Shown here: one piece after another, positions 7,839-38,173 of the stretch
Numbering within the stretch: the stretch's first letter is position 1
Layout: each line of letters opens with the position of its first letter
Source: Pseudoalteromonas sp.
GTDB taxonomy: Bacteria; Pseudomonadota; Gammaproteobacteria; Enterobacterales; Alteromonadaceae
NCBI RefSeq assembly: GCF_018402495.1
Contig: NZ_JAGYIU010000002.1
Coordinates: forward strand, 896,984-960,983
Length of the DNA: 64,000 nt
Direction: 5' to 3'
The notes under the pieces: model-generated
Database searches by the model: none
What the model was told of the DNA's origin: nothing
What the model saw: only the letters and a program-made list of their open reading frames with translations
Position numbers and translations under genes: made by a program

Positions 7839-8068
7839 AGGAACCTCTAGTTAAGGCCGCATCGCTCTCCAAACCCGAAGTCTGGCACCATACGTCGTTA
7901 AAACAAATTTATTGGTCGCGAATTTTATCCAACAACCCGTACGCACACAAGCTTTAATTACCCTTTTTGCTAAAAAGTCGGCAAACACCTATTCATTACT
8001 GATTTGTCGGTAGGCTTTTAATGCTATTTTTAGTACATTAAACCATTACGTTAATTGGTTGAGTTGTT

Positions 8069-35286: not shown

Positions 35287-35871
35287 TTACTTATCTTCGT
35301 CGTCATCTAGCCATTCATTTGCTAGATCGTTTGATAGGTATTGATCAAAGTCTGAATTACTGTCTTCATCGCTGAAGTCATCTTCAAACTCTTCTTCATC
35401 TTCAATGCCTAATAATTTACAAAGCACTTGGTGACGCGCTATGCGGCTATTGAAGTATTTTGCATCTTTACCCGTTAGCATTTCACCTTGCTCATGACGC
35501 TCAACTAATTTAAGTAAGCGCTCATCATTTTCAAGGGCTTCTAACTCTTGTTCAGGCGTTAATTCTGGTTCAACGGCCTTTTTAAGCTCTGCTACAGGTT
35601 TAAGGTTACGTTTCATTTCGATTTTTGGTTCAGCAGCAGGTGCAACTAATGGCACTGCTTTTTTACTACCAACGCGTTTATCTTTAGCAGCCGAACCTGC
35701 TTTTTGAGTTTCATTACTCACTGCATCCGGTGCATTACGTGAACCAGGCTTAGCGCCCTTAGTTTTTTTAACACGTTGCTCTTTCAATGCGCGCATTTCT
35801 TTAAGCTTATCTTGGCTTAAACGAACGGGACCATTTGATGGAATTTTACGTGACTTTTTCTTTCTACTCAT
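35287..35871 (-). CDS. yihI: Der GTPase-activating protein YihI
   Basis: Stimulates the GTPase Der and so tunes 50S ribosome assembly. Very basic N-terminal half with an RK-rich start and APGSRNAPD-like motif (KGAKPGSRNAPD), then an acidic C-terminal half (LEALENDERLLKLVERHEQGE, in parts; then DEEEFEDDFSDED). This bipolar charge layout is typical of YihI. 194 residues against 169. The segment downstream of its promoter side carries the Csr-type RNA, which ends about 150 bp before yihI and is read in the same direction. Confidence 0.93.
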   Translation of the reverse strand: MSRKKKSRKIPSNGPVRLSQDKLKEMRALKEQRVKKTKGAKPGSRNAPDAVSNETQKAGSAAKDKRVGSKKAVPLVAPAAEPKIEMKRNLKPVAELKKAVEPELTPEQELEALENDERLLKLVERHEQGEMLTGKDAKYFNSRIARHQVLCKLLGIEDEEEFEDDFSDEDSNSDFDQYLSNDLANEWLDDDEDK

Positions 35872-36023
35872 ATCTTGATCGTCTCACTTAAGAGGTTTTG
35901 AGCGAGGCGCAACTCAATGGGCATCGCGGTGCTGGCCTAGCCAGGAGAATTCAGTTTGGGCGTTTTGCGCGCCAAAGCACAGTTAAGGTACTTTTTTTAA
36001 ACGGGGGGTATTGTAACAGGACA

Positions 36024-36331
36024 AATAAAAAGGCGGTAGAGAAAACATCTCTACCGCCTACTAATCTGAGCGCCATTATATGGACACTTCTCCCTTCGAC
36101 TTTTTAGTCTTTATTGTTTTTATTATTATTTTCTATCCGTATTTTTATTATTTATCTTCCGTGTAGCATTCCATTTTGTTTTTATTATTAAACTTCCATG
36201 AGTATTTTATTATTTTCGGTCTTCCTAACACTTTTTTGATATTTCCTTTGGTAGCACACTCTATGTGCTATTCAGTCGTGCCGCGCTACTATCCTTATAA
36301 CGTTTTCCTATTTGTTATTGTTTTTGCGACA
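36024..36331 (-). ncRNA. Csr-type regulatory RNA (CsrB/CsrC family)
   Basis: About 300 nt on the minus strand, A-rich, with nine GGA motifs (plus-strand TCC at 36091, 36136, 36158, 36170, 36195, 36223, 36244, 36292, 36306), the sequence bound by CsrA. Several have AGGA or CGGA/TGGA contexts. Hairpins such as TAGCACA / TGTGCTA (36252-36270) and GACT / AGTC (36098-36109) are interspersed. It ends in a strong terminator. A promoter TTGTAA (36360-36365), 16 bp, TAAATT (36338-36343) fits a start near 36331. In E. coli csrC sits between yihI and engB, as here. It would sequester CsrA and relieve its translational repression. Homology cannot be proved without a covariance search. Confidence 0.8.
36028..36060 (-). 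terminator. Terminator of the Csr-type RNA
   Basis: AGGCGGTAGAGA / TCTCTACCGCCT hairpin followed, on the minus strand, by TTTTTATTTG. No protein gene precedes it on that strand, which is the reason to expect an RNA gene. Confidence 0.92.
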
Positions 36332-36466
36332 GGGGTTAATTTACTCGTTAATAATTTTGTTACAACTAATTTATATCTTTTTTCTTGTACTACATATTAC
36401 AAAAAACACTAAAAAATATAAATTACAATAAGTTACATTAAAAAATAAAAATAAAATGAGACTTTT

Positions 36467-36496
36467 CTTACATTAAAGCATGGTCAATGTCTTACA
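36467..36496. promoter_or_regulatory. Possible UvrY/GacA binding half-sites
   Basis: Two TGTAAG half-sites (minus strand; plus-strand CTTACA at 36467-36472 and 36491-36496) lie about 135-165 bp upstream of the predicted RNA start. UvrY/GacA sites read TGTAAG-N6-CTTACA; the second halves here are degenerate (CTCATT, ACCATG). Suggestive only. Confidence 0.4.
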
Positions 36497-36529: not shown

Positions 36530-36554
36530 AAAAAAGCAGCCAAGGCTGCTTTTT
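36530..36554 (-). terminator. Cytochrome c4 gene terminator
   Basis: AAAAAGCAGCC / GGCTGCTTTTT with a 2-nt loop, 49 bp past the cytochrome stop codon. Confidence 0.88.
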
Positions 36555-36602: not shown

Positions 36603-37235
36603 TTAGTGTAGTCCACCAAGGTATTTAGAGAGTGTTTCAATGTCTTTATCTGTTAGTTTCTTTGCAATGTCTTGCATAACACCGTTTAGGTCGTTATTAC
36701 GAACACCATCTCTGAACTGTTCAAGTTGTGACTTGATGTATTCTGGATGTTGAAAAGAAATTTTTGGAAATTTAGCAAGTGAAGAGCCATTACCACGCGG
36801 ACCATGACAAGCCGCACATGACGGAATACCGCGTTCAGCGTCACCCGCTTTATACAGCATGGCACCTGTTTCTTGAACATCTTTCGGTGTAGCACCTTCA
36901 GACATGTTCAAAGAAGCAAAGTAAGCAGCCAAGTCTTTCATATCCTGATCGCTCAATGGCATTGCCATGCCGCTCATTACTGCATTCATACGACCTTCTT
37001 TACCGCCCGAAGTCATACCTAATTTAAATTCAGTAAGTTGCTTATAGGTGTAATCTGCGTGTTGACCTGCAATTTTTGGGTAGATGTTAACCGGCGCATT
37101 ACCGTCTGGGCCGTGACAAGCCGCACACGTTGCTGATTTTTCTTTACCTGCGTTTACATCGCCATCAAATGCTGTTGCGTTGCTTGCTGACAACGCACCA
37201 AGCAATATAGTTAAAGATAGTGCTATTTTTTTCAT
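36603..37235 (-). CDS. Dihaem cytochrome c4
   Basis: Periplasmic electron carrier with an N-terminal signal peptide (cleavage after about SNATA, residue 22) and two haem sites, CAACH near residues 36-40 and CAACH near 140-144, each in a class I cytochrome domain. Distal methionines are supplied by the MAMPLSD-type and following stretch. 210 residues, normal for c4. Donates electrons to terminal oxidases such as cbb3 in relatives. Divergent from engB, a pairing seen across Alteromonadales and pseudomonads. Confidence 0.93.
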   Translation of the reverse strand: MKKIALSLTILLGALSASNATAFDGDVNAGKEKSATCAACHGPDGNAPVNIYPKIAGQHADYTYKQLTEFKLGMTSGGKEGRMNAVMSGMAMPLSDQDMKDLAAYFASLNMSEGATPKDVQETGAMLYKAGDAERGIPSCAACHGPRGNGSSLAKFPKISFQHPEYIKSQLEQFRDGVRNNDLNGVMQDIAKKLTDKDIETLSKYLGGLH

Positions 37236-37516: not shown

Positions 37517-38173
37517 GTGCTCAAATCTCGTATCAAGTATAACACTGCGTCTTTTGTTACAAGCGCGCCAGACATCACTAAATTACCTGCTGATACGGGA
37601 ATTGAAGTCGCGTTTGCCGGTCGCTCTAATGCAGGTAAATCAAGTGCGCTAAATGCCCTAACCGATCAAAAGTTAGCACGAACCAGTAAAACACCCGGCC
37701 GTACTCAGCTGATCAACACCTTTGAACTTGCCGATGTAGATAATATGCGCCTAATTGACCTACCTGGCTATGGGTTTGCAAAAGTGCCGATTGAAATGAA
37801 AAAGAAATGGCAAAAATCGCTAGGCGAATACCTGCAAAAACGTCAAAGTTTAAAAGGTATTGTGGTATTAATGGATATTCGTCATCCATTAAAAGATTTA
37901 GACCGCGACTTAATTAATTGGGCTGTAGGCAGTGAAATTCCGGTATTGGCACTATTAACTAAAGCCGATAAGCTAAAGCAAGGTCCGCGTAAATCACAAG
38001 TTCTTAGCGTACGTCGTGAGTTAAGTGAATTAGATGGCGATATTACGGTTCATGCATTTTCATCACTTAAAGGCACCGGCTTACCAGAAGTCGCTAAAAA
38101 GCTAGATGAGTGGTATTTAGGCCCAATCGTGGCCGTTCCACCTGCTGATTTAGTAGCGCCAGATAGCGAATAA
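37517..38173 (+). CDS. engB: GTP-binding protein EngB (YihA/YsxC), ribosome assembly
   Basis: Essential small GTPase for 50S assembly. G1 loop GRSNAGKSS (about 35-43), switch TPGRTQ, G3 DLPGYGFA (about 80), G4 TKADK and G5 SSLKG. 218 residues. The start is GTG at 37517 behind AGGAGAG, although the spacing is short. It stands alone and converges on the DUF1285 gene, with the two stop codons abutting. Confidence 0.96.

Follow-up and report, generated by a model that had tools for sequence, protein, structure and literature searches.

The window, by which we mean the whole 64-kb stretch of Pseudoalteromonas DNA that was analysed, carries on its minus strand an sRNA gene of 309 nt (positions 36023 to 36331), treated below as the ortholog of both csrC and Pf3. 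The gene ends in the T-run of its terminator, and a conserved 5' end, UGUCGC, probably marks its start at 36331. The gene downstream is yihI (35287 to 35871, minus strand; Pfam YihI, 107.5 bits), the one upstream encodes a two-domain cytochrome c (36603 to 37235, minus strand; Pfam Cytochrom_C and Cytochrome_CBB3), and beyond it lies an engB/yihA-type GTPase gene on the plus strand (37517 to 38173; Pfam MMR_HSR1), whose product and E. coli YihA hit identical places in other loci. A first reading of this DNA, made from the letters without database searches (the sequence-only reading), had named these neighbours, and Pfam matched all of them, the label 'cytochrome c4' aside. Behind the cytochrome gene, at positions 36531 to 36554, we noticed a perfect hairpin with T-runs on both strands, that is, a bidirectional terminator-like site.

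Gene anatomy and conserved structure

The strong intrinsic terminator announced by the sequence-only reading was found as a 12-pair stem followed by a T-run (36059 to 36031, minus strand). The plausible promoter it had proposed gave a mixed result. This promoter (36338 to 36365, minus strand) consists of a −35 sequence TTGTAA (36365 to 36360), 16 nt and a −10 sequence TAAATT (36343 to 36338); the standard sigma-70 consensus scan did not pick it up and was empty on the minus strand there, but in relatives its elements are near-invariant at a fixed distance from the start (GTTGTA in 43 and GTANAT in 44 of the 45 genus sequences described below).

Looking at the body of the RNA, nine GGA motifs (first bases at 36308, 36294, 36246, 36225, 36197, 36172, 36160, 36138 and 36093, minus strand) span 218 nt of the gene, and the count claimed earlier was thereby confirmed. 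Over both strands of the 64 kb, one stretch of 218 nt holds nine GGA, a fraction of 7.8e-6. The excess over shuffled sequences is real but modest: nine motifs compare with a mean of 5.1 in dinucleotide-preserving shuffles (p 0.017, and 0.012 for the 309-nt transcript), and a 218-nt body shifted by some bases, which holds eight of the nine motifs, gave p values of 0.0018 with dinucleotide and 0.0063 with mononucleotide shuffles.

All 108 genus genomes searched at the DNA level, the window's own among them, contain the element. We took 50 of the genus loci, the 30 best and 20 chosen for their divergence; both flanking genes (the cytochrome gene and yihI) were present in 47, and the other three were dropped because they had no cytochrome match. 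After removal of two further loci identical to others, 45 distinct sequences were left, 44 of which have a transcript of 274 to 320 nt. The last one (L051, positions 924 to 1665) reaches 742 nt, the extra length being made up of tandem repeats that follow the 5' domain and precede the third GGA. All 45 distinct transcripts carry 8 to 11 GGA motifs (seven have 8, thirty-five 9, two 10 and one 11) and the terminator helix is conserved; conservation of both among relatives had been set beforehand as a test of the sequence-only reading.

For the structure, we aligned 31 of the 45 sequences, hand-chosen for spread and with L051 left out. RNAalifold gave four conserved helices, namely P1 (UGUCGC/GCGRCA), a GUYAGGAWGAC stem-loop, stem-loop B (AGUGUC/GRCRCU) and the terminator. 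In these helices 99.4% of the cells were paired and 5 pairs had changed on both sides, and in a slid control, with the helix partner moved by 1 to 3 columns, pairing went down to 31–63%; this test is biased towards the four-helix structure, since the latter was derived from the same alignment. The small hairpins expected from the sequence were found in part, as four short conserved helices among which the terminator is counted. P1 (UGUCGC/GCGGCA, 36279 to 36331, minus strand) closes a 5' domain with two GGA; 100% of its cells are paired in the 31 sequences, and two of its pairs have changed on both sides. Folded alone, the single sequence has a stable MFE structure (z −3.06), from which P1 in its consensus form is absent, both results being for an input stretch shifted by one base. 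Stem-loop A, GUUAGGAAGAC (36219 to 36229, minus strand), has AGGA in its loop and is the only one for which the consensus clearly places a GGA in a hairpin loop; a similar motif occurs in many loci of the family. The conserved 3' module, AAAAGUCGAAGGGAGAAGUGUCC...GGCGCU (36069 to 36104, minus strand), includes stem-loop B, and its GTCGAAGGGAGA is invariant in the 31 aligned sequences. A model named R2 lost stem-loop B through four misaligned rows, and no claim made here rests on it.

Upstream operators and the csrC locus

The UvrY/SirA site of csrB is described as a near-perfect palindrome and that of csrC as a weaker, distinct box, TGTGAGACATTGCCGATA in E. coli and TGTGAGACATTGACCATT in Salmonella (PMC4682653). 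Upstream of the element we found a csrC-type UvrY/SirA operator, TGTAAGACATTGACCAT (36480 to 36496, minus strand), whose first base is at −165 and which has one mismatch to the Salmonella csrC box. The box at −165, TGTAAGACATTGACCATG, is the sole place in the 64-kb window with at most three mismatches. These UvrY/SirA sites were described by Zere and coworkers in 2015. A second UvrY/GacA-like site, TGTAAGAAAAGTCTCAT at −141 (36456 to 36472, minus strand), has two mismatches to the palindrome pattern, and 500 shuffles of the upstream region never gave better than three. The sequence-only reading had pointed to upstream TGTAAG half-sites and to UvrY/GacA control; the half-sites are those at −165 and −141, and an operator of this type is supported at the level of sequence. 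UvrY probably binds upstream of the element.

The csrC-type operator was present in 32 of the 45 genus sequences (zero to three mismatches of 17), at −165 or −166, to be compared with −168 from the annotated csrC start in E. coli. Counted over all 45, the mismatches to the Salmonella csrC box were 0 in 7 sequences, 1 in 15, 2 in 6, 3 in 4 and five or six in 13; reversed and permuted control strings had 5 to 8 mismatches in the same sequences. The remaining 13 sequences all possess a csrB-type palindrome (zero to two mismatches) at −186 to −189, meaning that a UvrY-type site is found in 45 of 45. No csrC-type box within three mismatches was found on the RNA's strand at 69 loci from other genera and families.

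The gene order in E. coli K-12 is polA, spf, yihA(−), csrC(+), yihI(+), hemN(+), and that in the window is polA, two ORFs, engB (opposite), the cytochrome gene, the element, yihI, a DUF2489 gene and hemN. The E. coli order is largely matched, as had been claimed; extra genes intervene and hemN is opposite to yihI, unlike in E. coli, but the element lies between engB/yihA and yihI and on the yihI strand, as E. coli csrC does. Position, orientation and operator make the element the positional ortholog of csrC in E. coli, and csrC is extended beyond the enteric bacteria. What it shares with CsrC of E. coli and Salmonella (RF00084) is the locus, the strand, the type of UvrY operator and its distance (−165 versus −168), multiple GGA motifs and a terminator. 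In contrast, its body can be aligned with that of E. coli CsrC in the terminator only, it has 9 GGA where CsrC has 14, CsrC is without the motif AANAANAA discussed below, and the E. coli site is without a cytochrome gene. A covariance model of the 3' domain, R1, did match E. coli csrC with 30.8 bits; we rejected this match as evidence of homology between the RNA bodies because, in the alignment, it is the terminator that accounts for it.

A check with the Rfam models, which the sequence-only reading had proposed, failed. RF00084 (CsrC) reached 8.8 bits at the element for a cut-off of 61, and E. coli csrC gave 278.7 bits with this model as a positive control. With RF00018 (CsrB, cut-off 71) the own genome had one match, of 20.1 bits, at a 24-GGA RNA on contig C5 and none at the element, and the RsmY model gave sub-threshold matches only, none of the matches listed being at the element. 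No Csr-family match above cut-off was obtained at the element with gathering or relaxed thresholds, and in 14 loci of the family Rfam at its cut-offs found nothing in a run that did find E. coli csrC. The element can serve as seed for an RNA family missed by Rfam in the loci scanned. The sole gathering-level Rfam match within the 64-kb window is a gammaproteobacterial L31 leader at 7843 to 7894 (minus strand; 61 bits, cut-off 33.2).

Model R1 was run on 395 genomes of the family and matched 61 of them, 29 outside the genus. All 29 loci were fetched: 21 are on the right strand and flanked by a cytochrome gene and yihI, and the other 8 lie elsewhere. In a set of named genomes, R1 matched two loci from Alishewanella, one from Arsukibacterium and several from Rheinheimera. 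The pattern GGGAGARGTGTCN(2-13)GRCRCT occurred once per genome in 117 of the 395 family genomes (32 of 32 in the genus, 85 of 363 in the other genera) and its control in none; it is this exact pattern, not the RNA itself, that is absent from the other 278 of the 363. Outside the family, it was found in one of 271 genomes. Among 19 of the 85 pattern loci that were fetched, 18 lay at the csrC site, one of these 18 on a contig ending before yihI. Two pattern matches, L153 in the family and L165, the sole one outside it, are not at the csrC site and were rejected. Judging from sequence, other genera of the family have RNAs with the same 3' hairpin motif at the csrC site. We also looked upstream of yihI in 11 other families (20 regions) for a GGA-dense stretch, defined as at least 11 GGA in 250 nt, that lies on the expected strand and is bounded by yihI on one side and by engB or the cytochrome gene on the other; six regions, from five families, had one, and the 14 without include L137 and L138 with 7 to 8 GGA.

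Pf3 and the sister Csr RNAs

In P. fuliginea BSW20308, three Csr sRNAs named Pf1, Pf2 and Pf3 were described, with 25, 21 and 9 GGA, respectively (Duan et al. 2025, PMC11882849). According to this paper, the Pf3 promoter works (as tested in E. coli), CsrA bound Pf3 in EMSA, and Pf3 antagonised CsrA in E. coli, where it raised glycogen; CsrA RIP-seq also enriched it, with a rank in the wild type behind the two other sRNAs. The Pf3 locus lies between D172_RS16045 and D172_RS16040, and matches to it were found in 470 of 672 Pseudoalteromonas genomes; those outside the genus were mainly in eukaryotes such as zebrafish and wasp (AAT/TAA repeats), plus one Thalassotalea (PMC11882849). AAT/TAA runs may be behind the matches of these authors in animal genomes. 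The CsrA targets reported for P. fuliginea include motility, biofilm and secretion genes.

The element has the traits described for Pf3 in a different species: nine GGA, an intergenic position, AAT/TAA-rich sequence and conservation throughout the genus (PMC11882849). P. fuliginea KMM 216 has, next to yihI, an RNA that is 88% identical and likewise contains exactly nine GGA; a second RNA of this genome carries the GacA box published for Pf1, with 25 GGA in its best 450 nt, and a third one has 24 GGA, unlike the published 21 of Pf2. Since KMM 216 has this nine-GGA RNA beside yihI plus two other GGA-rich RNAs, the element is almost certainly the Pf3 ortholog. As an sRNA it was already known, through the P. 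fuliginea counterpart published in 2025 as Pf3; its placement as positional ortholog of csrC with a csrC-type operator is new here, as are its relatives at this site in other genera and the A-R-N tracts discussed below. The name yihI has no occurrence in the main text of PMC11882849, and the sections covered mention neither csrC synteny nor A-R-N tracts. In the portions of the open-access literature that were covered, no paper places Pf3 at the csrC locus or describes A-R-N tracts in a Csr RNA of the group, and the yihI site is not named in the passages covered of the papers on Vibrio csrB synteny (PMC6262261) and Shewanella csrB1/B2 (PMC3171408). Pf3, whose origin was untraceable for its authors, becomes a csrC ortholog recognisable by locus and operator.

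The own genome encodes CsrA and two further Csr RNAs, one on contig C1 with 19 GGA (79% match to the KMM 216 Pf1 locus) and one on contig C5 with 24 GGA (83% match to the other GGA-rich locus of KMM 216). An exact csrB-type palindrome pattern lies upstream of each; no csrC-type box was found upstream of these two genes, the best having six mismatches. After the terminator of the 24-GGA RNA on C5 (L054), we observed a GCGGTCA-type tandem repeat. The sequence-only reading had made the element the main regulator of CsrA activity; with RNAs of 24 and 19 GGA in the own genome and Pf3 third of three in RIP-seq, this is unsupported. Of the three Csr RNAs, the element is not the principal one if P. 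fuliginea is a guide. GGA-rich CsrA-type sRNAs are also described in another marine gammaproteobacterium, Alteromonas macleodii, where the three, Aln1a-c, share one 404-nt intergenic region between Te101_04650 and Te101_04655 (PMC5864184).

Multiple GGA motifs above expectation and, in sequence, a UvrY/GacA-type operator upstream are traits of the CsrB/CsrC/Rsm class found in the element. We are highly confident that it is a csrC-type regulatory RNA, activated by UvrY and sequestering CsrA; the Csr-type RNA proposed by the sequence-only reading is supported, below Rfam cut-offs. Gene anatomy, conservation, operator sequence, position and the match to the P. fuliginea counterpart were observed directly, and CsrA binding and antagonism by the element would follow by transfer of the Pf3 results to the window's species. 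In the mechanism that we propose, UvrY/GacA would bind the csrC-type operator about 165 nt upstream and activate transcription of an RNA of about 309 nt, ending at the intrinsic terminator. Its nine GGA motifs would be presented to several CsrA dimers, and sequestration of CsrA would relieve its control of mRNA targets. Predicted Hfq binding would add a layer, through either stabilisation, as appears to be the case for RsmY (PMC8395346), or true titration.

A-R-N tracts and competing readings

Four (A-R-N)n tracts, all read on the minus strand, lie between the GGA motifs: n = 5 at 36311 to 36325, n = 5 at 36175 to 36189 (AATAATAAAAACAAA, nearly ungapped across the genus alignment), n = 4 at 36141 to 36152 and n = 7 at 36110 to 36130. 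The motif AANAANAA occurs 14 times in the element, for a shuffled mean of 3.2, and none of 500 shuffles was as high. The C1 and C5 Csr RNAs and E. coli CsrC have none, a contrast that is weak alone because only 0.3 to 0.6 would be expected by chance. We then looked at column entropy in the genus alignment: the third (N) position of the tracts has a mean of 0.89 bit, the first 0.26 and the second 0.05, and none of 20,000 within-tract permutations gave as high a phase pattern. When the test was made on reference-A columns alone, with 6 third-position columns, p was 0.0004, which is the fairer figure because the phase of the tracts was set on the reference sequence. A coding cause of this three-base periodicity was rejected as unlikely, because the tracts do not share a frame and ORF length is not conserved.

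Taken singly, 14 loci of the family showed enrichment at p < 0.05 for AANAANAA in 7 cases and for GGA in 4. Over 38 loci of other genera, which are not independent (20 of the 21 R1 loci, one near-copy being left out, and the 18 pattern loci), the sum of AANAANAA was 200 versus 36.8 shuffled (maximum of 200 sets, 61) and that of GGA 258 versus 183 (maximum, 209). Phase-conserved A-R-N tracts would be the signature expected for the distal face of Hfq, and the own genome encodes Hfq. In Pseudomonas, Hfq is titrated by CrcZ, which has six (A-R-N)n repeats with n of at least 4 (PMC4063720). The element shares with CrcZ (RF01675) repeated tracts of this length but differs from it in having GGA motifs, a UvrY operator and yihI beside it, and the RF01675 model gave a weak sub-threshold match there, 16.8 bits for a cut-off of 95.

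Would the element, besides holding CsrA at its GGA motifs, titrate or recruit Hfq through predicted distal-face binding to the four tracts, and so unite a CsrC-like with a CrcZ-like function? The count of AANAANAA (14 versus 3.2), the phase-conserved entropy and the sum over the other-genus loci (200 versus 36.8) argue for it, as do the presence of Hfq, the CrcZ precedent (PMC4063720), the apparent stabilisation of RsmY RNA by Hfq according to a review (PMC8395346) and the Csr-Hfq crosstalk that the Pf3 authors suspect in general, although none of the 12 Hfq passages covered, of 24 in their paper, reports a Pf3-Hfq test (PMC11882849). We hold this possibility tentatively, since Hfq stabilisation alone would leave the same signature, single-locus enrichment of AANAANAA reached p < 0.05 in only 7 of 14 family loci, and tracts and phase were defined on one sequence, with 6 third-position columns in the A-only test. 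In addition, the own Hfq (L145) has F in place of the distal-face residue Y25 of E. coli Hfq. With the same reserve, csrC of this family might be a two-protein decoy for CsrA and Hfq, a UvrY-controlled RNA coupling the Csr and Hfq networks, with the two sister Csr RNAs acting on CsrA only. If the tracts do bind Hfq, this would be a natural RNA joining two post-transcriptional networks, a role directly testable in a genetically tractable marine strain. The chances are nearly even that the A-rich tracts are instead unstructured spacers between GGA sites, or RNase E sites, in a plain CsrA decoy: A-rich linkers would leave the GGA accessible and the ortholog has been published as a CsrA decoy (PMC11882849), but spacers do not predict the strict conservation of positions 1 and 2 versus 3.

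The invariant 3' module (GUCGAAGGGAGAAGUGUCC) could also have a function of its own, as a base-pairing seed or a turnover signal. Such a role would fit the invariance of GTCGAAGGGAGA in 31 of 31 sequences and the single occurrence per genome of the motif in 117 of 395 family genomes, against none for its control, but we consider it unlikely, as the module contains a GGA and may merely be the best CsrA site. We regard it as highly improbable that the element is a yihI leader or a small protein gene and not a free sRNA. Although yihI lies downstream on the same strand, as a leader would require, a strong conserved terminator separates the two, and the distance from the RNA end to yihI is 147 to 220 nt in 28 of the 45 genus loci and 676 to 863 nt in the other 17. 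As for a small protein, the A-R-N tracts do not keep to one reading frame, and in 31 sequences the longest ORF has anything from 11 to 69 aa. In the 17 loci with the longer gap (L033 to L052), there is room for another gene between the csrC-type RNA and yihI.
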